A DNA stretch of 64,000 nt from Petasospora fabianii (lineage: Eukaryota; Ascomycota; Saccharomycetes; Phaffomycetales; Wickerhamomycetaceae), in contig CP048723.1 in assembly GCA_022641835.1 (NCBI GenBank), forward strand, positions 1-64,000, in the 5' to 3' direction. The stretch's first letter is position 1. Every line of letters begins with the position of its first letter. A program made the position numbers and the translations under genes. Below are positions 3,226 to 26,088 of the stretch, in pieces. Below the pieces are notes generated by a model. The model had not been told where the DNA came from. It saw only the letters and a list, made by a program, of their open reading frames with translations, and ran no database searches.

Positions 3226-3643
3226 TGAGTGGGTGTGTGCTAATGTGTGTGGTTGTATGATTTGAAAGCCATTGTGTACAACTCCAAAGTCTTATAAAAA
3301 CAAGGCGATGTGAGAAGACGAAGACCATACGTTGCAGGGGTACGCGGTGGCTGTCCCATGCCCTTTTCGGCGGTGGAGGTTTGGTGGCGGTAGCGAATGG
3401 TGGGGACTTGGGGACTTGGTATGGAAAGGGTAATTGATGGTGGAGGAGACACACAACTTCTTATCAGCTAATGCTCATCGTTATACAGAATCTCACACCC
3501 GTAGAGATGAAGAGCCACATTAGATGAGACAGCCAGGAACACCTGATTTTTGATTGGGGGATATATGAGCCTGCTCTTGCCGTGGACTTAATAAGTGATT
3601 GGTTGTAGTCTGTCTAGAACAGCATTTCCAACACACAGACAGC
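3226..3643. promoter_or_regulatory. Divergent promoter, HydA-DUF917 / oxygenase 1
   Basis: This 418-nt spacer separates two divergent start codons. It carries one GGTGGCGG at 3383-3390, inside a G-rich stretch around 3360-3420. The same 8-mer recurs in the next two cluster promoters. No ORF here looks real. Confidence 0.45.
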
Positions 3644-4645: not shown

Positions 4646-4750
4646 TAACAAGAATATATTCTTCCATTTCTGAACATATTCGAATGTAGCAGGATACCAT
4701 CATCTACAAACAGAAATGAAGAAGGCTGTATCGCTGTCTAATTATATCAT

Positions 4751-5704: not shown

Positions 5705-5708
5705 ATTG

Positions 5709-5741
<33 letters not shown>

Positions 5742-6172
5742 ATGATGGGTGTCTGGTTGTTGGTGGTGATAAGGCAAGTATATAGGTGGCGACTTTTTCG
5801 AGTTAAATAATTAGCAGACCTCGGATGTTATAGGATGGAACTGACTTGAATTGAAGCTGAAGATCAGTGGAGAAGATCTGGCATGTGTTTCCCGGTGGCG
5901 GAGTGGGGCGGAGACTTGAAGGACTAGACCCATGCACGTTAAAGGTCTTGATGCGATAAGCCTCTCCACTGTCCTGTCCTCCACCGACCGCCACCCGCCA
6001 CCAGATAGTGGATCTTGTACCTTGATTTGCACTTGTGTCTCCATAGAGAGGGAAAGAGGAGTGTGAATAACCGCCACCTGCCATACACAGCAGTCAGGAG
6101 TACAGACAGACATACGGTGTGCGCCTAACCCTCCACCAATCAGCACCACGTCGAGAGACTCTCTTCCCCTTA
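5705..6172. promoter_or_regulatory. Divergent promoter with five GGTGGCGR copies
   Basis: This spacer separates the AKR gene from the C2H2 regulator. It holds GGTGGCGA at 5785-5792, GGTGGCGG at 5894-5901, and on the minus strand GGTGGCGG at 5988-5995, 5995-6002 and 6071-6078. A TATA-like TATATA lies just before the 5785 copy. Repetition of an 8-mer at this density suggests a binding site for a zinc-finger activator. Confidence 0.5.
5707..5741. repeat. (GT)n microsatellite
   Basis: About 35 nt of nearly perfect alternating GT, with one GC interruption near 5714, lie immediately upstream of the AKR start codon. In the AKR transcript this would be a CA-repeat leader. Confidence 0.95.
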
Positions 6173-8560: not shown

Positions 8561-8650
8561 TAAGCATATGTATCTAATGATTAATGGCTGCGTAACTAAA
8601 TGGCTCATAGTGTAGTCGTTTGTACCTCTGCACTCAGTTAGGAAATCATT

Positions 8651-8680
8651 GGTGGCGGGTGGTGGCGGGTGGTGGCGGGT
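8651..8680 (+). repeat. Three tandem copies of GGTGGCGGGT
   Basis: Three perfect head-to-tail copies of the 10-mer GGTGGCGGGT lie about 120-150 nt upstream of the second oxygenase start codon. They share the GGTGGCGG core with the promoters at 3383 and 5785-6078, so they look like a regulatory array rather than random satellite DNA. Confidence 0.8.
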
Positions 8681-8802
8681 CAAGACGAACGATATCAGTG
8701 CTCTTCAAGGTTACTTAAACAGGCATCTTGCTATTCAAACAGGGTCGATGTGTAGCATGTGTAGTTAATAAAGTGTAAGGTAAAATCTACTGTCCATCCA
8801 CA

Positions 8803-9810
8803 ATGCCAAGTAAGGAGACAGAATCATCAGTTCCAATCGTTGACTTTGCTCCCTTCCTCAATGGTGGACAAGAAGGTAAGGTCAGAGTCGGTAAGCAGAT
8901 GGTATCTGTCATGAAGGAGTACGGATTCATGTATATCACCAATCATGGAATCTTGCAAAAAGACCAAGATGCAATTTTTGAGTGGAGCAAAAAGTTCTTT
9001 GCGATGCCTACTGAGAACAAGATGAAGTGTCCACATCCACCCCTTGGTTCATATCATAGAGGATACTCCTCTTTAGGTAAAGAAAAAGCTTCACAGGCTA
9101 TCTTCATGGATGGAGAAGAGCGGATAAAGACAGAGAATGTTCCAGATATTAAGGAATCTTTTGACATTGGCAATCCAGAAGACAATTCTGTCTACAAAAA
9201 CTTGTGGCCAGATGCTCAAGATATCCCAGAATTTCAAAACTCTATGGAGCAGTATTGGGCCAAGTGTAACGTCACCAGTAAGTTGTTTCTAAGAGCCATT
9301 GCCCTTGGAATGGACCTGGAAGAAGAGTTCTTTTTGGATTATCACAAGAAGTCAGAAAACCAACTTCGTCTTCTTCATTACCCACCAACAGATGAGGCCA
9401 ACTTGAAGACTGGTAAGGCTGAGAGAATTGGTGCACATACTGACTTTGGTACACTCACAATGCTACTTCAGGATGAGTGTGGTGGACTTCAGGTTGAACA
9501 TCCTTACCAGAAAGGCGTGTTTTTACCTGCACCATATATCAAGGGCTCTATAGTTATGAACACGGGTGATTTCCTTCAGAGATGGTCAAATGATACCTTG
9601 AAGTCTACACTGCACAGAGTCACAGCCCCACCTGTCAATTCTGAAACTGGAATATCCAAGGTCAGATACTCAATTCCCTATTTTGTATGCGCTGATGCAG
9701 ATAAAGTGATTGATGCCCTTGAGGGAACTTATGGTGACATGGTTCCAAAGAAATACGAGCCCATCACCTCTGGTGAGTACCTAACTATGAGACTGAATGC
9801 AACATACTGA
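8803..9810 (+). CDS. Thymine-7-hydroxylase-like Fe(II)/2-oxoglutarate oxygenase 2
   Basis: The protein has 335 residues and is a clear paralogue of the product of 3644-4645, alignable end to end by eye. Iron ligands are H212, D214 and H271; the 2-oxoglutarate arginine is R288. The C-terminus again ends in NATY, as in fungal thymine-7-hydroxylases. The main difference is the loop around residues 100-115, just before the PDIKESF motif, which is where substrate specificity could differ. Two such enzymes could act in successive oxidations or on different rings. Its promoter carries the triple GGTGGCGGGT array. It is intronless and presumably cytosolic. Confidence 0.86.
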   Translation: MPSKETESSVPIVDFAPFLNGGQEGKVRVGKQMVSVMKEYGFMYITNHGILQKDQDAIFEWSKKFFAMPTENKMKCPHPPLGSYHRGYSSLGKEKASQAIFMDGEERIKTENVPDIKESFDIGNPEDNSVYKNLWPDAQDIPEFQNSMEQYWAKCNVTSKLFLRAIALGMDLEEEFFLDYHKKSENQLRLLHYPPTDEANLKTGKAERIGAHTDFGTLTMLLQDECGGLQVEHPYQKGVFLPAPYIKGSIVMNTGDFLQRWSNDTLKSTLHRVTAPPVNSETGISKVRYSIPYFVCADADKVIDALEGTYGDMVPKKYEPITSGEYLTMRLNATY

Positions 9811-10120
9811 GTAGGTTGAATGAATTTTTAGTTAAGAAGATGAAAGGCTGTAGACCAGTATTTGGGACAATATATTGTCGTCCAAACGAAAGATACTAGC
9901 CTCTTGAGTATAAGCTGTTTCAGAAAGCTGAATCACAATAGTATCAAGCGGCCGTAAGTCTGGGGATACATATGCGAGCTGGCTATGAGGATATCGTTCT
10001 TCCATTGTCTCTATTGATTATCAAAAAAGAAAGATCAACTAAAAATAAATATAAATCTCATAAAGAAACACCCAATGTCCCAGCTAGGAAAAAGGGTCTA
10101 CCCACTCAAGGTAGCCAGAA
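9811..10120. other. Convergent 3' intergenic region
   Basis: This 310-nt spacer lies between the 3' ends of oxygenase 2 and NCS1 permease 1. It contains A-rich runs around 10020-10060 and no recognisable gene. It should hold both polyadenylation regions. Confidence 0.4.
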
Positions 10121-11842
10121 TTAAACATCATTAACAGCCTTAACCTTAACATGACCAATTGCCTTTGTATCAGAGGAGCTGTCACCAGAAACATCAAGCT
10201 CGATGCCTTCATACTCATCATATACCTTGTCAGTGTAAGGTGCCTCCTCACCTAGACCAGCTGGTGGGAATACCAAGTTGATGAGGTAATGTACAACCAT
10301 TGTTGTCACAATACCAAACAAGTAGGTTAAATTGTAAAGCTTTTCATAGCCTGATGGCATTGGATAGCCACCACCACTGCATATAAGACCCGGTAGAGTT
10401 GGTAAAGAGCCAGCAGCAATAGAGAACATTCCTCTCCAATTGATGCCCCATTTGTAGTTGTAAATCGAGGATTCATCGTTTTGGTAGAGGTCTGGCATGC
10501 GATACTTTTGCTTTCTGACAAAGAAGTAGTCAGCAACAGCGCAACCAACAAGAGGTCCGATAAAGACAGCAAATCCAGAGATAACAGTCAAGAAAACACC
10601 AGAAGTGGAGAGAAGTTTCCATGGTTGACACAAGATACCAATGATAGACATGATGTAAGAACCTCTTCTGATATTAATATATTTTGGCCAGAATCCAGCA
10701 ATGTCCATACCAGTAGAGCAGGCAGTGAGCAAAACAGCTTGCCACAACTGACCAGAGATGATACCAAAAGAGGCAAAGAACACTGCACCACGGGCAGCTG
10801 GACTGAAATCGTAGTGAACAAGCAGTGAAGGCAAGAGGGCCACGGGGTTCCAGTAGATGATACCCAGAACTGGTTCCATAGCAGCTGATGCAAAAATACC
10901 CATAGCAGCAGTGCAAAACCCAGTGATGGGAGCACTGATCAACTGAGACCAGTTTGGAGCGAATCTTGTCTTGGCGTAACGAGTCCAATCACTTTGACCG
11001 AGGATACCAGAATTGGAACCCATAATACTGGTGATCATAAAGAACACTCCCCAAGCAGGATTAAACCCAGTTTCTGTGGAGCTTGGCTTGTCCCAAAGAG
11101 GACCAAGCTTACCACCGTTGGCATGGACAGCCCAGCCAAGAATACCGAAGAAAGACCCACATTGAAGCACAAAGGAGATGTGAACCATGGTCTGCATTTT
11201 CTCTGGTGGAGTCAGCATCACCAAGCAAAAGAGGACGAGAGCTACCATAACACCAATCAGCTCAATCTTGGTCAATGGACTCCAATCGGAGAATGTTTGT
11301 CCCAAGTCACCCGTGATACAACTTGGTGACAGAGCTCCAAAAGCGCCGACAAATCCTTGTCCAATATAGTAAAAATGTGATCCCTGCCAAATACAAGCAA
11401 CAAATGACTTAATGGCAATAGGTAAATAACAACCATAAAACCCAAAAGCAGCACGGGAGGTAACAGTGTAACCAATTCTCCATTTTTGTCCGATAGCACC
11501 AATAGCACAACAGAGAATACCGACGAGGAGCCAGCCGACAGCCATGGCCACGAGGGCAAGCTTACAGTTGAGACCATACGCTAGCGCACTGGATCCCATG
11601 GACCAAGTTGGGATACCCATACCGGCAACGGCCCAGTAGCCAAAGTAGGAGATGGCAGTCCATGTCTGTCTGTCCTTTGGAGTTGGAATGAGGTCTCTGT
11701 TTGTCCATCTCGACTCCTCAAACTCGTCACCTTCTTCCTTTCTGACAGCAAGCAGCTCCGATACTGGGAGCTTGTCTGGGTTGGTGATGACACGCTTGAT
11801 CCATAAGTCGTCATAGAACGCACGTAGATAGAAGCTGGTCAT
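10121..11842 (-). CDS. NCS1-family permease 1 (Fur/Dal4-type)
   Basis: The protein has 573 residues with about 12 hydrophobic segments. It belongs to the nucleobase-cation-symport-1 family, Fur branch (yeast uracil, uridine, allantoin and thiamine permeases). Family marks include the NRDLIPTP motif near residue 50, the conserved GSNSGILGQSDWTRYA block in the middle and the ADYFFVRKQ segment late in the protein. It is a plasma-membrane importer of a nucleobase, hydantoin-like ring or related compound; the bacterial hydantoin permease Mhp1 belongs to the same superfamily. The N-terminal cytosolic stretch is rich in acidic residues and Lys, typical of proteins turned over by ubiquitination. Placement beside ring-cleaving enzymes supports a cyclic ureide or pyrimidine substrate. 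Confidence 0.88.
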   Translation of the reverse strand: MTSFYLRAFYDDLWIKRVITNPDKLPVSELLAVRKEEGDEFEESRWTNRDLIPTPKDRQTWTAISYFGYWAVAGMGIPTWSMGSSALAYGLNCKLALVAMAVGWLLVGILCCAIGAIGQKWRIGYTVTSRAAFGFYGCYLPIAIKSFVACIWQGSHFYYIGQGFVGAFGALSPSCITGDLGQTFSDWSPLTKIELIGVMVALVLFCLVMLTPPEKMQTMVHISFVLQCGSFFGILGWAVHANGGKLGPLWDKPSSTETGFNPAWGVFFMITSIMGSNSGILGQSDWTRYAKTRFAPNWSQLISAPITGFCTAAMGIFASAAMEPVLGIIYWNPVALLPSLLVHYDFSPAARGAVFFASFGIISGQLWQAVLLTACSTGMDIAGFWPKYINIRRGSYIMSIIGILCQPWKLLSTSGVFLTVISGFAVFIGPLVGCAVADYFFVRKQKYRMPDLYQNDESSIYNYKWGINWRGMFSIAAGSLPTLPGLICSGGGYPMPSGYEKLYNLTYLFGIVTTMVVHYLINLVFPPAGLGEEAPYTDKVYDEYEGIELDVSGDSSSDTKAIGHVKVKAVNDV

Positions 11843-14656: not shown

Positions 14657-16399
14657 TCACCCAACAGAGTCCCACGTCTTCAAGTTGTTTGTGATGCTCT
14701 TCCAGACATCTTCCGGAAGCTCCTTCGATAACGGCTGGAATAGATCAAGGAATCCGTCGGTCTTCTGTTCGAGAGGTGACAGTGAGAAGGTGTTTGTGAT
14801 GGAGTCCAGCAACACAGTGTTTGGACTCGTTTCCGTTGTCTGGAGTGCTAAATTTGGTAGAGGTGTTGCCGTTGCACTTTTCACACTTGTGTCTTTGATC
14901 TTGTCGAAGAGGGCATCGAGCTCCTTGAGTCTAATCTCATTCTCCAATGCAGTGAAGTTACCGGAATCACACATCGCCTTGTTTAGGTCCCTTCCAAGTG
15001 CAATCAATGAGTCGTGTCCAGAAGTCATGTAGAGCACAAGTAGAGATGAGAACAAGTATCTGGCATCCCAGAATCCAAATTCTGAAAACATACCAATCTC
15101 TCGAAGTTGATGAAGGATATTGATATTAGATGCGGCAGCACTGACACATTTTTTAATTGCCTGTTGGTATCCAGTACCATTGTGTTGTCCCATGAATGTA
15201 GAAAGAAGCAGTGGACGCACGGTGATGATCATAATCTGATTCAATCTCAGATACAAGTTTGCATTGGTCCTATCGTTAGGTATAATGATAGAGAACTTCA
15301 TCTCATCGGGCAGTCCTTGTTGGAAGTTAGACAGTTTTGTCATACATATGAGAAGTTGCGAGATCGTCTTTTTAGTTGTTGGCTTGTAAATGGTCTTCAT
15401 AACATAGACGATGATGTCACTAAGTTGACCAGTAAGTTCAAGGATTTCCGTCTTGAAACCATCATTTAGATCAGCCAATGGTTTAAGAGGTGCAGTGACA
15501 TCGGCAGTTTCGACATGGATTGGAAGACCCAGCTTGGCGGACCAGATTACATCCATACAATGACAAGTCCACCAAAGTCTTCTGCGACGTTCCTGTTCCT
15601 CAATTGAGAGGTAGGTAGCTCGGCGGTGGAGACCTAAAACGAGACATGCCCTAACTGCAAGCCCATAGTATGCGTATGAAGTGTTTGATCTGTTGAGACC
15701 TTGTAGATAGAAGGCCATCAAAAGAAGTGTTTGAATGAATTTTGTAGTTGGCTCCTCATGATTTGGCTGAAAATGTCTGAGAGCCATATTGAAGAAGCAG
15801 ATCCCCGGTACATCTTCACCTGTCTTGACATTCATATACTGCTGCCCGATGGCAAGTGTAACAAACAAGAAACATAGATCCTCTCCTGTATCATATATCC
15901 GATCAACCTGTTTGTTTAACGTCTCACTCTGGTCAAATAGATAGTATTCTTGTCCAAGAAAGAGCATCACTTTCCCCATCAAAAACAAAGCATAGTCCTT
16001 ACCCGGTAAAGGGATGTTTGGAGTTTCCACCTCTTTATAATAAAACTTCATCGCTGAGGTCTGATCGACATCGATGTCCAGAAACGAATAGAGCGATGAG
16101 TCTGTTGTTCCCTCTGTTTGGAAGACGTTCTCATCGAGAACATCCTCGGGGGGAGTTGAACCCGAGCGTACTTGTTCGAGTTGATGGATGCGCCGCTGGA
16201 GCTTTAGAATGTCAGACTCGTGCACAGTGACCACTCGGTCTCTTTCCGGATATTCACATGTCTTGCCTGTCATTGAACAATTGCGACACACGGGTCTCTC
16301 TCCAGAACACTTAATCTTATGGGATCTGCACCAATGACAGGCGAGATGGGCCCTTCCTCTAGACTTAACGGAGATGTACTCGATTTTGTCGGTGACCAT
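14657..16399 (-). CDS. Zn2Cys6 transcription factor 1
   Basis: The protein has 580 residues. Its N-terminus carries a canonical binuclear zinc cluster of spacing C-x2-C-x6-C-x6-C-x2-C-x6-C at about residues 21-48 (ACHWCRSHKIKC ... CSMTGKTC). A short coiled-coil-like stretch follows at about 58-75 (DILKLQRRIHQLEQV), then a fungal_trans homology region containing RRRRLWWTCHCMD near residue 275. It should act in the nucleus as a dimeric DNA-binding regulator. It sits immediately 3' of the hydantoinase gene in the same orientation, and its own promoter holds CGG/CCG triplets. This makes it a strong candidate for the regulator of the hydantoinase-racemase-carbamoylase genes. Confidence 0.88.
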   Translation of the reverse strand: MVTDKIEYISVKSRGRAHLACHWCRSHKIKCSGERPVCRNCSMTGKTCEYPERDRVVTVHESDILKLQRRIHQLEQVRSGSTPPEDVLDENVFQTEGTTDSSLYSFLDIDVDQTSAMKFYYKEVETPNIPLPGKDYALFLMGKVMLFLGQEYYLFDQSETLNKQVDRIYDTGEDLCFLFVTLAIGQQYMNVKTGEDVPGICFFNMALRHFQPNHEEPTTKFIQTLLLMAFYLQGLNRSNTSYAYYGLAVRACLVLGLHRRATYLSIEEQERRRRLWWTCHCMDVIWSAKLGLPIHVETADVTAPLKPLADLNDGFKTEILELTGQLSDIIVYVMKTIYKPTTKKTISQLLICMTKLSNFQQGLPDEMKFSIIIPNDRTNANLYLRLNQIMIITVRPLLLSTFMGQHNGTGYQQAIKKCVSAAASNINILHQLREIGMFSEFGFWDARYLFSSLLVLYMTSGHDSLIALGRDLNKAMCDSGNFTALENEIRLKELDALFDKIKDTSVKSATATPLPNLALQTTETSPNTVLLDSITNTFSLSPLEQKTDGFLDLFQPLSKELPEDVWKSITNNLKTWDSVG

Positions 16400-16814
16400 T
16401 GTGGGACTTGGACAGGCACCTATTCGGGCTGTCCGGGGGAACTAGCTGCACTTGATATTACTTCGTGTACTTGGAGTACTTCGAGACGGTCTGTTTGTTT
16501 ATTCAGTGATGAATTTGCGGAAAAAACTGTTCACTTTCTCTGACAGTGGTCTGAGTCCTCATAGCCATTCCGATAGGAAAAGCGGAGACTAAATCCGTCG
16601 GGGGCCTAGCTTATCGGCTATCAGCGGAGATCCCACAATAGTCTTGGGCTAGACCTAGACCTAGAGCGAAACTCATAAGGGGCCTGATGACCTAAGTTTT
16701 AGCACTTTGATAGTGCATCGGTAAGACTTCTGGGGTCATGGGTCTTGATGCCCTGATCCCTGATATAATGTTTACACCCGACTCTATAATGGGAATTCTA
16801 TATATATATGATAG
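16400..16814. promoter_or_regulatory. Zn2Cys6 factor 1 promoter / hydantoinase 3' region
   Basis: This spacer contains CGG-N9-CCG at 16583-16597 and a 12-mer ATCAGCGGAGAT at 16620-16631 that recurs exactly at 24257-24268 in the carbamoylase promoter. A short TA-repeat beside the hydantoinase stop codon is probably part of its 3' end signal. Confidence 0.45.
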
Positions 16815-18296
16815 TCAAGCAAAGATTGGGTTCAATTCACCTTTTGGACCAGCAAGGGTGGATGGGCCTCTCTTGAGATAGTTACCAGACCCGAGCTTGT
16901 TCAGCACTCCACCGTTGTCTCTGTCCCAGGCAATTTGTCCTCTCAACACGGTATATCTTGGCCAATTTGTGAAAGTCATACCTTCAAATGGAGAGTAATC
17001 AATGTCGTGATGCAACATTTTATTGTCAAGCTCGAATGGCTTCATCTGGCCCTTTGGATACCAAATAGTGAAGTCAGCATCATATCCGATTCCAATGGTA
17101 CCTTTCTTATCACTTAAACCGTACAACTTTGCAGGGTTTGTCGAGCATAGCTCAACAAACTTCTGTGGTGTGATGCGTCCAGTCTCAACACCATAGCAGA
17201 ATAAGAGAGGAAGACGCGTCTCAATACCTGGAAGACCATTTGGAACCTGCTTGTAATGTGGAAGTCCATTAACGATACCGAGCTTTTTACCTTTTGGATG
17301 GTCGTATTTGGAAGGTGCATGATCAGAGGAGAAAACAGTGACGGTACCATTAATGATAGATCTCCATACACCTTCAAGCTCCTTTTGATCCTGTCTCAAT
17401 GGAGGAGAGCAGATGTACTTGGCTCCTTCAAAGCTATCATCAGCGTGCTTATGGTTGCAACAACCCTGCTTGAGATAGTCACTAGTGAGGAAGAGGTATT
17501 GTGGACAAGTCTCAGCATAGATTGGCGTAAGCTGCTTCTGTGCGTTTTCAACATGAGAAAGGGCAAGCTCAGAAGACATGTGAACAATTAATATTGGAAC
17601 GTCAATGATCTTGGCCAAGGAGATCACTCTATAAGATGCCTCCTCTTCCGCCTCAATCGGTCTAGACATCGAGTGGTAGTATGGGTCTGTCATCTTCTTC
17701 TCTTGAAGCTTTTCGTTGATGAAATCAATCACATCAGAGTTTTCAGCGTGAATCATTGTTGTCATCTCAAGCTTTCTAGTCTCGAGCAAGATATCCAGGA
17801 GCTGAGAGTCGTTGAGTTTGTAACGTGGATAAGTGGTGTATACCTTAATCGATGTGATACCTTCCTGACTGACGATCTCTGGAAGCTGCTTGAGCATTGT
17901 GGCATTTGGATCTGAGACAATGAGATGGAATCCATAATCACAGTAAGCACCAACCGAGGCCCTCTTGTGGTAATCTGCAACAACTGCTTTCAGATCATAA
18001 GATCCCTTTGGCTGGATAGCGAATGGTAAAATCGTTGTATTTCCACCTGCAATAGCAGATCGGGAACCGGACTCAAAGTTATCACCAGTTGGAGCATTGT
18101 CCTGATCGATATGAACGTGTGAGTCAACACCACCCGGCGTAACGTAGCCACCTTGGGCATCGATGACCTTGATACCTTCGAGAGGCTCGGTGGTCATTGT
18201 CTGGATTATACCATCTTTGATACCGATGTAGACAGATGGTGGGAGAATGTCAGAGGCAGTGACGATGTAGCCGTTGTGTATAACCAAGTCAAACAT
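16815..18296 (-). CDS. Hydantoinase/dihydropyrimidinase-type cyclic amidohydrolase
   Basis: The protein has 493 residues and belongs to the amidohydrolase superfamily, D-hydantoinase/dihydropyrimidinase branch. The complete binuclear metal site can be read: H60 and H62 (SHVHID), the lysine that becomes carboxylated K151 (SIKVYTT), H183 (MIHAEN), H239 (IVHMSS) and D325 (SSDHAP). It should hydrolyse the C-N bond of 5-substituted hydantoins or dihydropyrimidines, giving N-carbamoyl amino acids. Length matches bacterial D-hydantoinases (about 460-490) better than Lachancea PYD2 (about 540). It is divergent from the hydantoin racemase gene and next to a matching carbamoylase, which favours hydantoins over reductive pyrimidine breakdown. 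No dihydropyrimidine dehydrogenase is present in the window. Confidence 0.9.
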   Translation of the reverse strand: MFDLVIHNGYIVTASDILPPSVYIGIKDGIIQTMTTEPLEGIKVIDAQGGYVTPGGVDSHVHIDQDNAPTGDNFESGSRSAIAGGNTTILPFAIQPKGSYDLKAVVADYHKRASVGAYCDYGFHLIVSDPNATMLKQLPEIVSQEGITSIKVYTTYPRYKLNDSQLLDILLETRKLEMTTMIHAENSDVIDFINEKLQEKKMTDPYYHSMSRPIEAEEEASYRVISLAKIIDVPILIVHMSSELALSHVENAQKQLTPIYAETCPQYLFLTSDYLKQGCCNHKHADDSFEGAKYICSPPLRQDQKELEGVWRSIINGTVTVFSSDHAPSKYDHPKGKKLGIVNGLPHYKQVPNGLPGIETRLPLLFCYGVETGRITPQKFVELCSTNPAKLYGLSDKKGTIGIGYDADFTIWYPKGQMKPFELDNKMLHHDIDYSPFEGMTFTNWPRYTVLRGQIAWDRDNGGVLNKLGSGNYLKRGPSTLAGPKGELNPIFA

Positions 18297-18566
18297 TGTA
18301 ATGCCTTACTAACTCAGAGGAAAGTGAATGACGGTTCTTTACTGGGAAAGTGCGCACTCTTGTCCTTTTATTTAGTGGGGTCAATAACGTCGATCGGGGA
18401 AGTTGTGCGCGTTCGCCGAGTATCTTTCAACTCCGCAATCCACGCGGAGTTCTTAATTAGAAAGCACGCTAATCAAGTTGAATTTCTCTTCTATAAAAGT
18501 CCTGAGTGGGTCCCCTACTTGATTATTATGCCTACCGACAAGAGCATAGATAACAACATAGATACA
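18297..18566. promoter_or_regulatory. Shared divergent promoter, hydantoinase / racemase
   Basis: This 270-nt region drives hydantoinase leftward and racemase rightward. It contains TCGGGGAA at 18394-18401, the inverted repeat AACTCCGC-N7-GCGGAGTT at 18428-18450, and a TATA box CTATAAAA at 18491-18498 about 70 nt before the preferred racemase start codon. Confidence 0.55.
18428..18450. promoter_or_regulatory. Candidate Zn2Cys6 operator, AACTCCGC-N7-GCGGAGTT
   Basis: The 8-bp arms are perfectly complementary across a 7-nt spacer, giving everted triplets CCG-N9-CGG. The repeat is central in the hydantoinase-racemase promoter, so one dimeric regulator could control both genes. Similar CTCCG/CGGAG repeats lie upstream of permease 2 and of Zn2Cys6 factor 2. 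Confidence 0.5.
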
Positions 18567-19355
18567 ATGACTATTAGCAGTCTCAACAACCTTCCGTTCG
18601 TCGGGGTTAACGATAAGATCAAGGTTCTTCTGTTGAACCCCAACTCCACAGAGATCATGACAATCAACTGTCTCAAGATGGCAAAGGAGCACCTTGCACC
18701 AGACGTTACTGTTTACGGATTTACTGCATCAAAACCCGCCCCAACTACAATCGAGTGCCATCTTGATGGTGTTCTCTCGGCAGCAGCAGCCTTCAGAGAT
18801 GCCTACGATTACATCGGTCAAGTTGATGCCGTTCTTGTTGCTTGTTTCTCTGACCATCCATTGACCAACTGCATTCGTGAGGAGTTTGATATCCCAGTGT
18901 GTGGCATCTTTGAGGCTAGTATCTACACTGCAAGGCTCCTTGGTGGTAAATTCGGTATACTCACTACCGTACAGAGATCCTCTATCAGACATGGCCATGC
19001 TGTCAAGGCCATGGGTCTTGATGGCTTCTGTGCAGGTCTTTTGAGTACCAATTTGAAGGTGGCTGAGCTCCACACGAAGCCAAGAGAGGAAGTGCTGGCA
19101 CTTCTTGCTGATCGTGCTACTAAGCTTGTTGAGCAGGGTGCCGACACACTGATCTTGGGATGTGCTGGTATGTCTGATATGCAGCAGGCGGTGACGGAGG
19201 CTATTCAGGATAAAGGTGTTCAGGTCATTGATGGCGTTGTCTCAGGTCTAAACCTGTTGACCGGAGTCGTGAGAAGTGGTCTGAAGACTTCCTCATTTGG
19301 TCTCTTCTGCAGTAGCAAGGAGTCTAGGGAGACGAGAGGCCAGGAATATCTCTAA
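18567..19355 (+). CDS. Hydantoin racemase (Asp/Glu/hydantoin racemase family)
   Basis: The protein has 262 residues from the ATG at 18567. An in-frame ATG at 18528 would add 13 residues, and the open frame back to 18153 overlaps the hydantoinase antisense and is not credible; the TATA box at 18491 and the conserved strand VLLLNPNST starting at residue 20 favour 18567. The two catalytic cysteines of the family are C93 (VACFSDHP) and C199 (LILGCAGM). HyuE-type enzymes interconvert D- and L-5-substituted hydantoins, so both enantiomers can feed a stereospecific hydantoinase. S. cerevisiae DCG1 is a distant relative of unknown role. Divergent coupling with the hydantoinase gene is strong contextual support. 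Confidence 0.87.
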   Translation: MTISSLNNLPFVGVNDKIKVLLLNPNSTEIMTINCLKMAKEHLAPDVTVYGFTASKPAPTTIECHLDGVLSAAAAFRDAYDYIGQVDAVLVACFSDHPLTNCIREEFDIPVCGIFEASIYTARLLGGKFGILTTVQRSSIRHGHAVKAMGLDGFCAGLLSTNLKVAELHTKPREEVLALLADRATKLVEQGADTLILGCAGMSDMQQAVTEAIQDKGVQVIDGVVSGLNLLTGVVRSGLKTSSFGLFCSSKESRETRGQEYL

Positions 19356-19534
19356 ATTCATGTCATTCAAACTTGTATTAACGTAGTAGGGACTCGTGCG
19401 CCGATAATGTCCGTCCTGGGCGCGCATGAGGTTGCGTCTCCCCCGGCTCGCGGGAAAGTATAAAGACCTTCCCGATGTACCATTCTTCCAACCAGCTACT
19501 CATTGTCCCATACATCAGAGAGAGAGGGAAGACA

Positions 19535-20584
19535 ATGGTTGCAACAAAGCCACGCGTTCTATACGTCCCTTGGGACAATCCTGTCCACGATGAGGAGGCA
19601 TGGAAGACTTTAAACGACAACTTCGATCTTATCATCTACGACTTTGATACCGTGGAGGAGTACATGGACGAGCTTCGTAAGCCAGGACATGGTCGAATCG
19701 GTTACATCGATGCCATCTGCCGCTCAACATGGCTGAAATCTAATCCATACATTCACCATTACATCCTCAGAGACGAGGCCGTGAGACTCTTGCCGGACTC
19801 TTGTAAGCTCATCTGCCAATCTGGTCACGGGTTCGACATTGTCGATGTTGAGTACTTGACATCGAGAAATGTTGTCTTTTGCAACTCTCCAGACTCATGC
19901 ACACGTGCCACTGCCGATGTCGGTGTGTTCCTCATCTTGAATGCCTTCAGATACTTGACTCTGGCTGAACACTGTGTGAGGACCCCAGGTAAGTACTACG
20001 ATTCACAGGAAATTGCCAACATTGCCGATGATCCAAATGGTAAAACACTCGGTATTGTTGGTTTGGGTGACATTGGTATCCTTGTTGCTAAGACATGCCA
20101 ATCTCTAGGTATGAGAGTGGTGTATCATAACAGAAAGAACAAGAATATTGAAGGTATGGAATATTGTGCCACAGTGGATGAACTATTTGCACAGGCCGAT
20201 TGTATCTTTATTGCCTGTCCATACACGCCACAAACACATCACCTTGTCAATGAGGAGTCCTTCAAGAAGATGAAGCCTAAAGTCCGCATTGTAAACATTG
20301 CAAGAGGACCAATTGTGAAGGAGAGTGCTGTCATTGATGCCATCGAGAGAAATCAGCTTGTCGGTGCTGGTTTCGATGTTCATGAATTTGAGCCAAAGAT
20401 TGATGAAAGACTATTGAATAATTGGAAGATTACTTTGACCCCACATATTGGCGTCTGCACTAGGGATTCTTTCCAAAACTTTGAAAAGAAGTGTGTCAAG
20501 AACATGATGCAGTTCTTCTATCAGGAAGAGAAACCACACACCGCAGTTAACCCTGAGGTCTATGATAAACTTTACTCCAAATAG
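19535..20584 (+). CDS. D-2-hydroxyacid dehydrogenase (D-mandelate dehydrogenase-like)
   Basis: The protein has 349 residues from the ATG at 19535, which is preferred over the frame start at 19475 because the preceding 20 residues are not family-like. It has the D-isomer-specific 2-hydroxyacid dehydrogenase fold. The Rossmann motif GLGDIG is near residue 175, with the active-site triad Arg in NIARGP, Glu in VHEFEP and His in LTPHIG. It should interconvert a D-2-hydroxyacid and a 2-oxoacid with NAD(P)H. The GFDVHEFEP block resembles yeast and fungal D-mandelate dehydrogenases. In this cluster it could reduce the 2-oxoacid left after deamination of the D-amino acid product, but that is inference. 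It is co-directional with the racemase and 180 nt downstream of it. Confidence 0.85.
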   Translation: MVATKPRVLYVPWDNPVHDEEAWKTLNDNFDLIIYDFDTVEEYMDELRKPGHGRIGYIDAICRSTWLKSNPYIHHYILRDEAVRLLPDSCKLICQSGHGFDIVDVEYLTSRNVVFCNSPDSCTRATADVGVFLILNAFRYLTLAEHCVRTPGKYYDSQEIANIADDPNGKTLGIVGLGDIGILVAKTCQSLGMRVVYHNRKNKNIEGMEYCATVDELFAQADCIFIACPYTPQTHHLVNEESFKKMKPKVRIVNIARGPIVKESAVIDAIERNQLVGAGFDVHEFEPKIDERLLNNWKITLTPHIGVCTRDSFQNFEKKCVKNMMQFFYQEEKPHTAVNPEVYDKLYSK

Positions 20585-21186
20585 ATGATATTCTATAGAC
20601 CAATAAACATATTTTACCTAACGGATCTGTACTCTTCCCCCACAACTATGCTTTAAACAATGCTCGGGGAACTTGTGGGATTACACCGAGACTCGTCCGC
20701 ATCGCGGAAGCGGAAATGTGAGGCGCTTGGACTAGATCGGGGAAACCTCAAGACTTCTCCGAGTCTCTCTAATTATACTTTAATGCAGGGACTAAAGGTA
20801 AGAGATTGAGTTAGAGGCATACCATCTGAAGCCTATCTTTTGTTATTCAAATGCTTTCAGTCAAAGAAGAGTAATCGATGGATATTTGGCAGTAGATAGT
20901 TAATCTTCGTAGAGCAGACCCTATTCTAGGACCCTGGCCTCTCGCGTAGACCTGCTCCAATCATACCACGGCTCAAGTTCTTTTTTTTTTTTCTAGCAAC
21001 TGTCCGCTACTGGAGACCAAGATACTCCCGTATCAGCTCCGCGAGTTTTCGGAGAGTGGACAGATACGGAAGGTGTCACAATCAGGCTGCATCAATAGGC
21101 TTATATAAGACGTTGTTGATCTCCCTCGATGATGACTCCGCACTCTCAAACTTTTTACAGGGAGATACCACCACAACTTTACCGAA
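20585..21186 (+). promoter_or_regulatory. Promoter region of NCS1 permease 2
   Basis: This 602-nt region holds TCGGGGAA at 20664-20671 and 20737-20744, a T12 run at 20981-20992, the inverted repeat CTCCG-N8-CGGAG at 21037-21054 and a TATA box TATATAA at 21102-21108, about 80 nt before the permease start codon. No gene is visible. Confidence 0.5.
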
Positions 21187-22833
21187 ATGGTGTCCTTCAG
21201 AAACATACACGACAGGGTCAAGTTACCTCTTGCCCAAGGTACATACTCTGATGGTGTTCTTTACTCCAACAGAGACTTAGACCCAGTTCCACAGTGGTCT
21301 CATGAGAGAAAATGGAACTGGTTCTCTAATCTGGGGTTTTGGATCGCTGAGGCCATGTCCATTTCCATGTATCAAGTTGCTTCATCTTCAATTACTCTTG
21401 GTCTTTCTCCAGGTCTCGCTGTTTGTGCTATCATTGTCGGTCACGTCATTGTTTCTATCCCTGCTATGCTCAACGCAATGTATGGAGCCAGATATGGACT
21501 TGGGTTCCCTGCTCTTATGAGAGTCACTGCTGGAGCTTCGACTGGTATTTGCGGAGCCCACATTATGGTTGCAATCAGAGGTATTGTGTGTATCTTGTGG
21601 ACTGGTACCCAAACACTCTTGCTTGGTCAGTGTATCCAGTCTATGCTGACTGCAATCTGGCCATCTTTTGCTCACTTCCACAATGCTCTTCCCGAGAGCG
21701 CTGAAATTACAAGTGCTGGTCTACTGTGCTTTTTCCTTGGTGTTATTGTGCAAATTCCTGCCCTGTATCTCACCGTCAATCAGTTGCGTTGGCTCTTCAC
21801 TATCAAAGTCGTTGTCGGTATCTGCTTCACCATTGTTCTCTTTGCCTGGGCAGTACACGGTGCCAAGGGTTTTGGACCAATCTTCCGTCAGGGAAACAAC
21901 ATTACTGATGGAACTCCAACTGTTGTTGTTTTCTTCAGATGTATGGTGTCTGCTATTGGGCCAAAAGCTACACTTGCACTCAACATCTCTGACTTCACAA
22001 GATATGCTAAGAAGCCAAAGCAAGTTTGGTGGCCACAATTTGTCGGCCTTGTTGTTCTTGTCACAATTTGTGGTCTCTTGGGTATCATTGTGACTTCTGC
22101 TACAAAGGTTATCTATAATGAAACCACATGGAGTCCGCTTCAAGTTGAAGCTCTTTGGCAAAATAGAGCCGGTCAGTTCTTCGCATCTTCCGTTTGGGCG
22201 TATTCTACCCTTCTCACTAATATTAGTGCTAACACTGTTTCTTTCTCATACGATCTCAGTTTGCTTTTCCCTCGCTATGTCAACGCTAGACGTGGTGCCT
22301 ATATTTGTTTGCTTCTCGGTATCTTGTCCTGTCCATGGTATGTCCAGAATTCCGCAGCATCTTTTTCTGCTTTCCTCGGTGGTTACTCTATGTTCTTGGG
22401 TCCAATTGCCGGTATTATGTGTACAGATTACTGGATTTTGAGAAAGAGACAGATCAATGTGCCAGGTATTTACAAGCACGATGGACCTTATAGATTCTTC
22501 CATGGTTGGAACCCAGCTTGCTTTATCGCCTTCATTATTGGTATTGCTCCAAATTTACCAGGCCTTGCCTACATTTGTGGTAACAAGAGTGTTCCGATTA
22601 TGGCCTACTATGTTTACTCATTCTCCTATGTTACTGGTATTGTGTTAGCAGCCATTGCTTACTATTTGATATGCACTTTATTCCCGTCGATTTGGATGGC
22701 AGATATGAAGAACTTTGTTAATGATCCAGGATACACTTTCGAAAGACCGATAGATGAACTTGAAGGTGTGGAGCTGGGATTCACCTCTTCTGTATCGAAG
22801 GACCAGGTTGTGGTTCATACGAAGGGTGCATAA
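21187..22833 (+). CDS. NCS1-family permease 2 (Fur-type)
   Basis: The protein has 548 residues and about 12 membrane spans. It starts with a short cytosolic tail that includes NRDLDPVP near residue 34, equivalent to NRDLIPTP in permease 1. Conserved family blocks follow: AEAMSISMYQVASSSI in TM1, GPKATLALNISDFTRYAK in the TM6-loop region and GIMCTDYWILRKRQ late in the protein. It should be a plasma-membrane proton symporter for a nucleobase, nucleoside, allantoin- or hydantoin-like ring. It is quite diverged from permease 1, so the two probably differ in substrate rather than being a recent duplication. It sits between the D-hydroxyacid dehydrogenase and the carbamoylase, with cluster-type motifs in its promoter. 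Confidence 0.88.
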   Translation: MVSFRNIHDRVKLPLAQGTYSDGVLYSNRDLDPVPQWSHERKWNWFSNLGFWIAEAMSISMYQVASSSITLGLSPGLAVCAIIVGHVIVSIPAMLNAMYGARYGLGFPALMRVTAGASTGICGAHIMVAIRGIVCILWTGTQTLLLGQCIQSMLTAIWPSFAHFHNALPESAEITSAGLLCFFLGVIVQIPALYLTVNQLRWLFTIKVVVGICFTIVLFAWAVHGAKGFGPIFRQGNNITDGTPTVVVFFRCMVSAIGPKATLALNISDFTRYAKKPKQVWWPQFVGLVVLVTICGLLGIIVTSATKVIYNETTWSPLQVEALWQNRAGQFFASSVWAYSTLLTNISANTVSFSYDLSLLFPRYVNARRGAYICLLLGILSCPWYVQNSAASFSAFLGGYSMFLGPIAGIMCTDYWILRKRQINVPGIYKHDGPYRFFHGWNPACFIAFIIGIAPNLPGLAYICGNKSVPIMAYYVYSFSYVTGIVLAAIAYYLICTLFPSIWMADMKNFVNDPGYTFERPIDELEGVELGFTSSVSKDQVVVHTKGA

Positions 22834-23153
22834 TGTACAATAAAATTGCTCAATATCATATAATTTGATCTGTTCTTAACTTCAGCATTGGTGGTGTAAC
22901 GTAGATTTCGCTTAAGAGACGTTTTCAAAGTAGCGGAGGGCTCAACTCACAAACATGCTTACGTACGTACTTTAACAATGAATGATTGTGGATTATTTAA
23001 GAGGATTGTGTTCATCACCTTTGCGCTTTGCGGGTTTTGAGTCGTTTGAGTTGCATATGTTATGTGTCTATATAGTATTTAGTATAAATTAACATTATAT
23101 TATGGATTTATTTTAATTATTATTATTTGTATATAGTGATTTAATAGTTTCCC
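22834..23153. other. Convergent AT-rich intergenic region
   Basis: This 320-nt spacer joins the 3' ends of permease 2 and the carbamoylase. The part from about 23060 to 23150 is very AT-rich (ATT repeats). I find no gene and no clear replication-origin consensus. Confidence 0.4.
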
Positions 23154-24119
23154 TTAACCCTTGTATGGAGTCTCGATAGCACCTTTCTGTTCCACCAATC
23201 TTCCGTAGAGTTCTGGACGACGGTGTCTGGAGAAATCGAACATTTTCTTCTTACCATTGATAGCTTCATCCAAGTCAATCTCCGCTGTGATGATCTCATC
23301 ATCTTCTGTCTCAGCTCTGGCTATGACCAATCCATTTGGATCAACGATAATAGATCCAGCGATCAACTCTTGCTCGTCCTCAACACCACACTTGGCAACA
23401 GAGACAGCGAAACAGGAGTTGAAATAGGCGTTGGAGATTGTAGATAAATCACTATGGTGAAGTCTCACAGTCTTGTTCTCCTTGGCACCGAACAAAGCTG
23501 TACCGTTAGCCGTTGTGTTATAACCGTTCAAACACAAGTCCATACCTTGGAGCGCATAACATCTCCAAGCTTCTGGCCATCTTCTATCGTTGCAAATAAG
23601 CATACCAATAGTGGCATCAATCCATTCTGGGTTAGAGTGGTAGGCTGGGAAGCCCAGGTCACCATATTCAAAGTATCTCTTTTCAAGCTGCTGGAAGGCG
23701 ATACCTGGTGTTGGATCATCAAAACCGGGCAGATGAGCCTTTCTGTACTTCTGTACTAGCTGGCCCTGGTTGTCCACAAGGATATAGGTGTTGAAGTGAT
23801 GGCCATCGTCAGTGAGTTCTGCATAACCTAGTACGAAACCACAGTTGAACTCTTTAGCCGCATCGAACAATGGCTTGACAACCTCATTCTTGGTGATATC
23901 ACCCTTCTCAAAGTAGGAGTCGACCTCCTCCTGTGACTCAATAAACCAACGTGGGAAGAAAGAAGTGAGGGCAAGTTCAGGGAAGACAGCGAGCTTAGCA
24001 CCTTTCTCTGAAGCCTCTTTGAGGAGCTTGATGAGACGAGCAACAGTCTCTGTCTTTGGAGTAGCCTTTTGAATTGGCCCGAGCTGGATACCGGCAATGG
24101 TGAATTTTCTGACGGACAT
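23154..24119 (-). CDS. N-carbamoyl-D-amino-acid amidohydrolase-like (nitrilase superfamily)
   Basis: The protein has 321 residues from the ATG at 24119; an upstream in-frame ATG at 24170 adds 17 unconserved residues. The nitrilase triad is complete: E48 (FPELALTSFFPRW), K127 (KYRKAHLPG) and C176 (ICNDRRWPEAW). These blocks, and LEKRYFEYGDLGFP just before the cysteine, match the Agrobacterium D-carbamoylase family closely. Bacterial members are about 304 residues. The reaction is N-carbamoyl-D-amino acid + H2O to D-amino acid + CO2 + NH3. Together with the hydantoinase and racemase this completes hydantoin conversion and releases nitrogen. The strong bacterial resemblance raises the possibility of horizontal transfer. 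No signal peptide or membrane span is seen. Confidence 0.9.
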   Translation of the reverse strand: MSVRKFTIAGIQLGPIQKATPKTETVARLIKLLKEASEKGAKLAVFPELALTSFFPRWFIESQEEVDSYFEKGDITKNEVVKPLFDAAKEFNCGFVLGYAELTDDGHHFNTYILVDNQGQLVQKYRKAHLPGFDDPTPGIAFQQLEKRYFEYGDLGFPAYHSNPEWIDATIGMLICNDRRWPEAWRCYALQGMDLCLNGYNTTANGTALFGAKENKTVRLHHSDLSTISNAYFNSCFAVSVAKCGVEDEQELIAGSIIVDPNGLVIARAETEDDEIITAEIDLDEAINGKKKMFDFSRHRRPELYGRLVEQKGAIETPYKG

Positions 24120-24606
24120 TGTAACACTGGTGTGTAAGTATTTCATCACCAGTGTGTGACTACTACCCATTTGGAGCCGATGTTTGGGTTATATTGTTCA
24201 TCAGCGATGCACCCCACTAACCGATAAGCTCGGAGAAGTGCTCGAGTTTCCCCGAATCAGCGGAGATGGACACCATACAGCACAGCCTGAGACTCCAGAG
24301 TTTCCTCTGTGAGCTCGGGAAAAGAGTATTAGCACTCCGAGACTGTTACTATCGAGAGGTATCTTATATGGTTCATACATCAATTTTATGACCCAGGAAG
24401 TCCGCTTTAAAGAGAGATCTGGACAAAGGTGCTCTTCGGTCTTGTCGCGACCCTTTGCCGAAGCCAGGCTGAATCGGGAAAGCAAAGCGGACAGAAGTGA
24501 AATAACTCAAATGTTTCGCATTTAGAAGCGAAAGATATCTTTCAAGAGTCATTTTATCATCAGTACAAAGTTCAAAGACAAGGCTAATGGCTACGCAGCA
24601 CCGAAA
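24120..24606. promoter_or_regulatory. Divergent promoter, carbamoylase / DHA1-type MFS
   Basis: This region holds the reverse complement of TCGGGGAAA at 24247-24255 and the 12-mer ATCAGCGGAGAT at 24257-24268, both shared with other cluster promoters. Additional CTCGG/CTCCGAG half-sites occur between 24225 and 24340. Confidence 0.5.
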
Positions 24607-26088
24607 ATGAGCGAGAAGAAGCTATCCCTCGAGAAGGAAACGCTTCGCCGGTCACCGGCATTGAAATCGACACCTGAAGGAGATGTGTTAGAGGTTGTAC
24701 ACGATACACAGGAGGATGACATCCAAGATGTTCGAACTGACCTAGAGAAGATGGACGATGATGACTTCTATGCCCGTTTCTCACCCATGAGGAAGAAGTT
24801 AATTGTGCTCATAGTGTCGCTATCATGCTTCCTCTCACCCCTCTCCTCCATGTCCTTCCTTCCGGCAGTCTCCATCATCGCTGATGAGTTCAACACAACA
24901 GGAACAATGATTAATGTCACCAACGCAGTTTATAATCTCATGATGGGTCTATCTATGCTCCTAATCTCACCAATGGGATCGATCTACGGGAAACGTAACA
25001 CCTTCATCGTGTGTCTAACATTTTTCCTCATCACAACCTTACTCACTGGCCTCTCAAGGAACCTCCCCATGTTCTTCGTATTTCGTGCACTGGCTGCCCT
25101 CTTTGGTACTCCACCATTCTCCGTGGGGTCCTCTACACTAGGTGACATCTATAAACCAACAGAGAGAGGAACCGCGTTGGGACTATCCCTCCTGGGCTCA
25201 CAACTCGGCCCAGCTCTGGGACCTGTCATTGGGGGGCTCGTTGTGACGTACACATCATGGAGAGTAATTTTTTGGATCCAGGTTGGATTAGCAGCCGTGG
25301 ATATGGCTCTTGCTATTATGTTCCTCCCAGAGACATCACGTGTCACCGAGCTGACACTCAAGAGAAGAAGAACCGGTAAGAAAGAATGGTGGGTGTCATA
25401 CAACCCGCTTAGAGTATTAATCAACGTGTTCCGTTACCCCACACTCACTCTTGCTGGGATTGTCGCAATGTCAATGCATTTCAACATGTTCTCGTTACTC
25501 ACACCGATCCGTTACGTTGTTGATCCGAGATTCAACTTGACAGAGCCGGTGTATGGTGGATTATTCTACTTAGCCCCAGGATTTGGCTACGTTATTGGGG
25601 CAGTATTTGGTGGACGCTTTGCTGATTACCATGTGAAAAAGTATATGCAAATTAAAGGACGCAGAGTACCCGAGGATCGACTAAGAAGTATGATTGTGGC
25701 GATGGGTATTGTCTTGCCCGTGTCTGTGATGATCTATGGGTGGTGCCTCGAGAAAGAGAAAGGAGGCATTGCTGTACCCGTTATAATGTTGTTCCTTGGA
25801 GGTGTTGCACAAACTGTGTGTTATCCGAGCATCAACACATATTGTGTCGACTCGATGCCACAACTGCGAGGCGACGCCATTGCAGGTAACTACTGCGTGC
25901 GGTTCATCGCTGCTGCAGTGAGTTCGGCGTCATGTTTGCCCGAGCTTCATGCATTGGGAGTCGGTTGGATGTGTACAATCTCTGCACTATTCCTTTTTGC
26001 AGGGTTTGGGTCGAGTCTGACCCTCATCAGGTTTGGTGAACGTATGCGTCTCGGGAAGAGTGCTGCAGGAGATGCCAAGACCGGTTGA
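24607..26088 (+). CDS. MFS transporter, DHA1 (drug:H+ antiporter)-type
   Basis: The protein has 493 residues and twelve predicted spans after a charged 65-residue N-terminal tail. Marks of the DHA1 group include SPLSSMSFLPAVSII in TM1, GSIYGKR in loop 2-3 and the antiporter motif C-like GPALGPVIGG in TM5. Homologues in yeast export drugs, organic acids or polyamines. Substrate is unknown. It diverges from the carbamoylase gene, so it may share its regulation and export a pathway product or toxic substrate; equally, it may only mark the cluster edge. Confidence 0.82.
   Translation: MSEKKLSLEKETLRRSPALKSTPEGDVLEVVHDTQEDDIQDVRTDLEKMDDDDFYARFSPMRKKLIVLIVSLSCFLSPLSSMSFLPAVSIIADEFNTTGTMINVTNAVYNLMMGLSMLLISPMGSIYGKRNTFIVCLTFFLITTLLTGLSRNLPMFFVFRALAALFGTPPFSVGSSTLGDIYKPTERGTALGLSLLGSQLGPALGPVIGGLVVTYTSWRVIFWIQVGLAAVDMALAIMFLPETSRVTELTLKRRRTGKKEWWVSYNPLRVLINVFRYPTLTLAGIVAMSMHFNMFSLLTPIRYVVDPRFNLTEPVYGGLFYLAPGFGYVIGAVFGGRFADYHVKKYMQIKGRRVPEDRLRSMIVAMGIVLPVSVMIYGWCLEKEKGGIAVPVIMLFLGGVAQTVCYPSINTYCVDSMPQLRGDAIAGNYCVRFIAAAVSSASCLPELHALGVGWMCTISALFLFAGFGSSLTLIRFGERMRLGKSAAGDAKTG

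Follow-up and report, generated by a model that had tools for sequence, protein, structure and literature searches.

Can a yeast break down hydantoins with a gene cluster like those of bacteria? The question is raised by a locus in Petasospora fabianii (formerly Cyberlindnera fabianii), a yeast of the Phaffomycetales, at 14657-24119 of the window, as we call the whole stretch of DNA analysed: the first 64 kb of contig C9 (412,426 bp), from a genome of 12.34 Mb in 16 contigs. Bacterial hyu operons contain a hydantoinase, a carbamoylase, a hydantoin racemase and an Mhp1/HyuP permease, and the three enzymes are those of the industrial 'hydantoinase process' for amino acids, best known from bacteria. 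The original prediction, made from the yeast sequence, was a hyu-like set leading from hydantoins to D-amino acids. This reading gains support from the D-carbamoylase signature of one enzyme, from beta-alanine synthase-like genes that lie separately in the genome, from a promoter motif common to the genes and from apparent linkage in other yeasts. We give a probability of about 0.7 to a yeast catabolic cluster and regulon for 5-substituted hydantoins or their N-carbamoyl-D-amino acids. The gene families, the catalytic residues, the common motif and the bacterial affinity of the carbamoylase are taken from the sequence, and the linkage in relatives follows from it less directly.

The substrates, the direction of flux, the role of an oxidase and the binding of the motif by this particular regulator are the proposed parts of the scheme. 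The NCS1 permease would import the hydantoin, the racemase would interconvert its two forms, and the hydantoinase would open the ring of the D-form to give an N-carbamoyl-D-amino acid, which the D-carbamoylase would split into a D-amino acid, CO2 and ammonia. A gene outside the cluster would supply a D-amino-acid oxidase to convert the D-amino acid to a 2-oxo acid with release of a second ammonia. This 2-oxo acid would then be reduced by the D-2-hydroxyacid dehydrogenase, with a D-2-hydroxy acid as the product. The genes would be switched on through the motif CGG-N18-CCG by a Zn2Cys6 dimer, in the simplest case of the factor encoded at 14657.

If this is correct, eukaryotes have evolved the same hydantoin pathway, with new enzymes already suited to a eukaryotic cell, and a metabolic gene cluster has been built from fungal parts and one bacterial gene. 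It would also raise the question of which natural hydantoins the pathway serves. The original prediction knew of no described yeast cluster of this kind, and a literature search, with most subscription journals outside it, likewise found none. More broadly, no description of a fungal hydantoin-utilisation cluster was found in the literature searched, beside which older yeast physiology on hydantoin may exist. The accessible portion of one paper (PMC5169069) reports that racemases and D-amino-acid oxidases have been transferred into fungi, and does not contain the word 'carbamoyl'. Another (PMC9585004), in its accessible portion, describes dihydropyrimidinase as probably present in many fungi and does not contain the word 'hydantoin'.

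Enzymes encoded at the locus

The locus holds six uninterrupted open reading frames (ORFs) with no other large ORF in between, and Pfam families fit all six, so the predicted row of hydantoinase, racemase, carbamoylase, NCS1 permease, dehydrogenase and Zn2Cys6 regulator without an unrelated gene is borne out. The predicted catalytic residues of the three hydantoin enzymes were found as well: every metal ligand of the hydantoinase (four His, the Lys that is carboxylated, and Asp), both cysteines of the racemase and the E-K-C triad of the carbamoylase. The NCBIfam library, which was built for bacteria and archaea, was searched too; racemase, dehydrogenase, permease and carbamoylase passed the cut-off of none of its models.

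The product of 23154-24119 (minus strand, PF00795) is, judged from its sequence, of the D-carbamoylase type, an N-carbamoyl-D-amino-acid hydrolase. The ORF is open to 24170, and M18, at 24119, is a likelier start than this limit. The protein scores 282.4 bits against the D-carbamoylase 6lei and at most 71.5 bits against other nitrilase-family structures. E65, K144, C193, R196 and R197 are kept in all 26 yeast-clade and all 94 other listed relatives. The motif C-N-D-R-R is also found in the solved D-carbamoylases aligned to it, and the double arginine that follows the catalytic Cys of D-carbamoylases serves in carboxylate binding. The best NCBIfam model is N-carbamoylputrescine amidase (114.7 bits, cut-off 410.25).

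The hydantoinase (16815-18296, minus strand, 493 amino acids) exceeds the cut-off of TIGR02033, a model named D-hydantoinase and described as dihydropyrimidinase (424.7 versus 393.25 bits). It scores higher, at 543 bits, with an NCBIfam dihydropyrimidinase subfamily model, but stays below that cut-off of 647. Its nearest solved structures are the dihydropyrimidinase 2fty, which we take to be from Lachancea kluyveri, and then the D-hydantoinase 1k1d. The metal ligands H60, H62, K151, H183, H239 and D325 are kept in 31 of 31 relatives (30 listed proteins and a paralogue on contig C6). The protein agrees at 491 of 493 residues with 'Dihydropyrimidinase [Cyberlindnera fabianii]' (P0121). That hydantoin is its physiological substrate is a suggestion favoured by the gene context.

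These two enzymes bear on the main rival, a cluster for dihydropyrimidine (uracil/thymine) catabolism in which a Pyd2-type dihydropyrimidinase would be paired with a carbamoylase acting on N-carbamoyl-beta-amino acids. The match to 2fty speaks for it, and a genome search with the hydantoinase yielded, apart from the query, only the allantoinase and a close paralogue on C6; one of the two hydantoinases may well serve pyrimidines. The carbamoylase argues the other way, with 282 bits to D-carbamoylases versus 27.9 to the beta-ureidopropionase 8pt4 and 68.7 to the nitrilase 3ivz, called beta-ureidopropionase in some entries, and with its C-N-D-R-R motif. C5 and C11 each carry an M20-family gene, outside the cluster, whose best match is beta-alanine synthase (449.2 and 435.4 bits). 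Dihydrouracil, moreover, has no stereocentre on which a racemase could act; dihydrothymine has one. We regard this rival as unlikely and prefer the hydantoin cluster.

The racemase, an Asp/Glu/hydantoin racemase family protein of 275 amino acids (18528-19355, plus strand, PF01177), has allantoin/hydantoin racemases as its nearest solved structures (5lfd and 3qvj), with nearly equal scores for the allantoin racemase and the putative hydantoin racemase (83.3 and 79.0 bits). C106 and C212 are kept in 37 of 37 yeast-clade relatives, and the protein is 99% identical to the read-archive protein P0241. The D-2-hydroxyacid dehydrogenase (19475-20584, plus strand, PF02826/PF00389) is nearest to the D-mandelate dehydrogenase 2w2k among solved structures (187.9 bits). 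Its likely start is M21, at 19535, and the alignment to 2w2k begins at residue 25.

The permease (21187-22833, plus strand, 548 amino acids, PF02133) is a candidate hydantoin/ureide importer and one of at least 12 NCS1 matches in the genome. It scores 334.4 bits with the general NCS1 model TIGR00800, under the cut-off of 353.1, and 57.7 bits with Mhp1, to whose NCS1 subgroup it does not belong. By eye, W117 and Q121, residues with a role in Mhp1, align with W138 and Q142 of the permease. The candidate cluster regulator is a Zn2Cys6 transcription factor of 580 amino acids (14657-16399, minus strand, PF00172 and PF04082) with a zipper-like stretch, seen by eye, after the zinc cluster.

Racemase and permease could also be read as the core of an allantoin/ureide cluster in which the other enzymes are secondary. 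The racemase is indeed nearest an allantoin racemase structure, and the permease matches allantoin permease models, far under the cut-off (191.2 versus 620 bits). The genome, however, has an allantoinase on C6, above the TIGR03178 cut-off (462.5 versus 357.85 bits), and a second racemase-family gene on C1, 35% identical to the cluster racemase; to our knowledge, allantoin breakdown has no place for a D-carbamoylase or a D-2-hydroxyacid dehydrogenase. We consider an allantoin cluster very improbable.

A motif shared by the promoters

CGG-Nx-CCG was counted at spacings 0 to 20 in nine promoter stretches, five from the cluster and four from a C6 locus described below. The five cluster stretches hold seven copies of CGG-N18-CCG in 1,917 bp, and in 5,000 dinucleotide shuffles of them no spacing between 0 and 30 yielded more than 4 copies. 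As a control, 8,527 bp of the window in 23 other intergenic stretches contain no copy of the motif. The entire window has 9 copies versus 3.23 expected, and the two outside the cluster promoters both lie within coding sequence (19699 and 30783).

Four motif-bearing promoter regions serve all five structural genes, with one copy for hydantoinase/racemase, one for the dehydrogenase, two for the permease and three for the region that the carbamoylase shares with a gene for a major facilitator superfamily (MFS) transporter. The first copy (18395-18418) is flanked by the start codons of the divergent genes for hydantoinase (98 bp away) and racemase (109 bp away). The second (19451-19474) lies 60 bp before the likely dehydrogenase start. 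Two copies stand 498 and 425 bp upstream of the permease start (20665-20688 and 20738-20761). The last three are at 24231-24254 (111 bp before the carbamoylase start), 24316-24339 and 24437-24460 (146 bp before the MFS start). The regulator's own promoter has no copy. The MFS gene (24607-26088, plus strand, PF07690) may be an additional cluster member, because the promoter region with three motif copies is common to it and the carbamoylase. The structural genes are apparently under one common Zn2Cys6 switch. Control by GATA factors was rejected, since GATAAG was not enriched in the promoter stretches tested.

An extended form, CGGRRAA-N10-TTYYCCG, has two exact matches in the genome, both in the cluster (20738-20761 and 24231-24254); the pattern was derived from the cluster sites, so their match to it is partly built in. 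With up to one mismatch, there are 21 genome sites, 4 of them in the cluster, versus 13 for the reversed-pattern control, and the remaining 17 are near background. Exact CGGRRW-N12-WYYCCG occurs at 17 genome sites (4 in the cluster; control 15), which is no genome-wide excess. A looser half-site pattern gave 29 rows for 27 distinct sites, again with 4 in the cluster, and 21 rows in the control.

Apparent linkage in other yeasts

Linkage was inferred from equal sizes of the longest contigs that carry relatives of the carbamoylase, hydantoinase and racemase (the best 120 listed from each protein search), with one contig per protein cluster. Between the 26 yeast-clade carbamoylases and the 37 yeast-clade racemases there are 11 equal-size pairs, nine of them on contigs of at most about 61 kb. 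Carbamoylase and hydantoinase give 6 pairs (5 with the 30 yeast-clade hydantoinases and 1 with the 90 others), and hydantoinase and yeast-clade racemase give 10 (9 yeast-clade hydantoinases and 1 other). Outside the yeast clades, a hydantoinase and a racemase make up one more pair. Five contig sizes (9,272; 11,882; 21,640; 25,305; 61,292) occur in all three lists. As a control, the 94 non-yeast carbamoylases were compared with 239 hydantoinases and racemases, which gave 3 equal-size pairs.

Individual species give a mixed picture. Candida jaroonii has a carbamoylase-racemase pair on a 621 kb contig, a size that indicates the same contig only. In Ogataea philodendri the locus tags of hydantoinase and racemase are consecutive (OGAPHI_004912 and OGAPHI_004913). 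For Priceomyces carsonii the matches listed include a carbamoylase, but neither a hydantoinase nor a racemase. Four racemase-family proteins, probably of filamentous fungi, read through from a carbamoylase tail, so carbamoylase and racemase genes are neighbours there too. Altogether, sharing of contigs by the three genes in other yeasts appears to be common and not universal. Relatives that are never linked, which the original prediction had named as a refuting observation, are not what these lists suggest.

Motif and linkage also bear on the possibility that the cluster is a chance neighbourhood of unrelated subterminal genes. The locus does lie 15-24 kb from one end of C9, and gene content shuffles in subterminal regions. 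The set nevertheless looks like more than chance because of the shared promoter motif and the apparent linkage in other yeasts, and we find a chance neighbourhood barely credible beside a hydantoin regulon.

Fungal parts and a carbamoylase of probable bacterial origin

The 26 yeast-clade carbamoylases are 66-88% identical to that of the window, and those with names come from C. jaroonii and P. carsonii (Serinales) and O. philodendri (Pichiales). In a carbamoylase tree, a fully supported branch (100/99) sets this clade and the window's enzyme apart from the other rows included, 27 of the 94; the tree program warned of a long row, P0061, that meets the yeast-clade branch. Identity then falls to about 56% for the next relatives, of which the 16 with an organism name are all bacterial: 15 from Roseococcus and its kin (Acetobacterales) and one from a Hyphomicrobiaceae bacterium. 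Because these next relatives are bacterial wherever named, the carbamoylase was probably acquired from bacteria. Its GC content at third codon positions (GC3), 0.494, is unexceptional beside the values of 30 ORFs, which span 0.417-0.553, and by this measure no compositional trace of transfer was found. The pattern fits an old bacterial transfer whose composition has fully adjusted. Among the best 120 matches each for hydantoinase and racemase, every row with an organism name is a fungus.

A separate bacterial origin of the filamentous-fungal carbamoylases was also considered. The carbamoylase tails of the four read-through proteins match non-yeast rows with somewhat higher scores than they do the best yeast row; in terms of identity, the gap is slight and one of the four shows none, which leaves this idea weak. 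The best listed carbamoylase is 88% identical to that of the window, though the hydantoinase and the racemase have near-identical database proteins. The database apparently lacks the C. fabianii carbamoylase, owing to gene prediction or to differences between strains.

The surroundings of 80 bacterial carbamoylases nearest the Roseococcus protein P0028 (best 80 of 353; many of these loci are short contigs) were compared with the yeast locus. A hydantoinase-like gene, about 25% identical to the yeast one, is present in 40, a racemase in 14 and a D-2-hydroxyacid dehydrogenase in 4; the permease and the regulator were found around none of the 80. Transfer of a whole operon from a bacterium was rejected: the named relatives of hydantoinase and racemase are fungal, and signs of a bacterial origin are confined to the carbamoylase. 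The yeast set seems to be a convergent assembly, because the bacterial loci have a distant hydantoinase, few racemases and no permease or regulator.

A fuller version of the hydantoin reading would be a eukaryotic regulon made by assembly, with fungal hydantoinase, racemase, permease and dehydrogenase around an alphaproteobacterial (Roseococcus-kind) D-carbamoylase, one long-spaced Zn2Cys6 site and an oxidase on another contig. We put this version at slightly under an even chance. A part of it, equally tentative, is that carbamoylase carriers occur in at least three budding-yeast orders and the carbamoylase-racemase pair in apparent filamentous fungi. If true, D-amino acids would be made and burned as a nitrogen source by a convergent counterpart of the bacterial hyu operon.

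Regulon candidates on other contigs

One of the CGGRRW-N12-WYYCCG sites, at C1:2266542, precedes a D-amino-acid oxidase gene (C1:2266707-2267747), with 141 bp between the site and the start codon. The product of this gene has the oxidase 1c0i as its best solved match (164.8 bits). The genome has five D-amino-acid oxidase matches. We estimate the chance of an outside site within 500 bp of one of five oxidase genes at about 0.003, and at about 0.016 for a wider set of some 30 genes that would have counted as relevant. The position of the site is suggestive of the oxidase gene being a further target of the regulon, which would tie the D-amino acid product to its oxidation and supply the substrate of the dehydrogenase.

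The second hydantoinase, about 71% identical to that of the cluster, is encoded on C6 with a D-amino-acid oxidase gene on either side, the two oxidase genes sharing 86% identity (C6:461464-465927, L124 464-4927; also L007 2505-5806), after which amino-acid permease and M19 dipeptidase genes follow. None of four promoter stretches tested at this locus has CGG-N18-CCG, and it was rejected as a part of the regulon. About 7 kb from it, a CGGAGAA-N14-CCG site (C6:454276, L006 276-299) lies 225 bp before an acyl-CoA:6-aminopenicillanate acyltransferase family gene. A one-mismatch match at C6:575639 was discarded as lying inside a DnaJ gene.

On C1, three CGG-N18-CCG copies fall within 560 bp (C1:588206-588762; L133 706, 1044 and 1239). 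They precede an NCS1 permease gene (C1:589862-591571), a possible second permease of the regulon, but at a distance of 1.1-1.6 kb. A site at C2:19061 (L130 1501) lies 92 bp before a fumarylacetoacetate-hydrolase family gene, and several other half-site matches are likewise near contig ends.

The observations that weigh against a hydantoin regulon can be set together here. Among solved structures the hydantoinase matches a dihydropyrimidinase best, and dihydropyrimidinase is also the usual annotation of the named members of its fungal family. The best solved match of the racemase is an allantoin racemase, and the permease resembles Mhp1 weakly. CGG-N18-CCG by itself is not rare, given the expectation for a window of this size and single copies at several other genome loci. 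Chance could account for the oxidase site, as there are 13 sites outside the cluster versus 15 in the control, and the C6 hydantoinase, though flanked by two D-amino-acid oxidase genes, has no copy of the motif in its promoter region. In other yeasts, 15 of the 26 carbamoylases have no racemase partner of equal contig size, including that of P. carsonii on a 2.6 Mb contig, and in O. philodendri the hydantoinase/racemase pair and the carbamoylase (OGAPHI_003157) lie on separate contigs.

Comparison with known clusters

The yeast locus is like a bacterial hyu operon in having hydantoinase, carbamoylase, racemase and permease genes adjacent, with a carbamoylase of the bacterial D-carbamoylase family and a permease of another NCS1 subgroup. 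Unlike the operon, its genes lie on both strands with separate motif-bearing promoters and do not form one polycistronic unit. A Zn2Cys6 regulator, CGG-N18-CCG sites and a D-2-hydroxyacid dehydrogenase are added, the hydantoinase and racemase have fungal relatives, and the permease falls outside the Mhp1 subgroup.

In yeasts, the dihydropyrimidine pathway is encoded by PYD2 and PYD3 (Lachancea kluyveri). The cluster hydantoinase and the yeast dihydropyrimidinase 2fty are members of one enzyme family, whereas the cluster carbamoylase belongs to the nitrilase family and not to the M20 type. No M20-type beta-alanine synthase lies in the cluster, both M20 genes found being on C5 and C11. Their loci (L121 2244-5585 and L122 2048-5361) look like a duplicated locus; by eye, a Zn2Cys6-like regulator gene of similar start stands beside each, and the C5 copy adjoins two NCS1 permeases. 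The yeast DAL (allantoin) cluster is a nitrogen-scavenging cluster that includes an NCS1 permease and a racemase-family gene. The locus is probably of this type and has these two genes as well, and differs in its ring-opening and decarbamoylating enzymes and in having the allantoinase elsewhere in the genome.

Genes to the left of the cluster

A fusion gene of hydantoinase/oxoprolinase A and S-methyl-thiohydantoin-desulfurase domains lies at 316-3225 (minus strand), about 13.6 kb left of the hydantoinase. It lends some weight to a narrower alternative, that the cluster scavenges one natural hydantoin such as hydantoin-5-propionate, derived from histidine or ergothioneine, by way of N-carbamoyl-D-glutamate to D-glutamate. 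The hydantoinase also matches models of the hydantoin-5-propionate hydrolase of ergothioneine utilisation, far under the cut-off (208.5 versus 650 bits). The genome, however, has no match to PF00221, the histidine/ergothioneine lyase family, in a search that was positive in 5 of 14 control genomes, and ergothioneine or histidine was rejected as the hydantoin source. The fusion gene has no tie to the regulon, since the leftmost CGG-N18-CCG copy of the window is the one at 18395. We judge this alternative improbable, and 5-substituted hydantoins more generally remain the preferred substrates.

The same side of the cluster also holds two 2OG-Fe(II) dioxygenases (3644 and 8803), an aldo/keto reductase, a C2H2 regulator and another NCS1 permease (10121-11842). 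The region 316-11842 is possibly a second ring-opening cluster.

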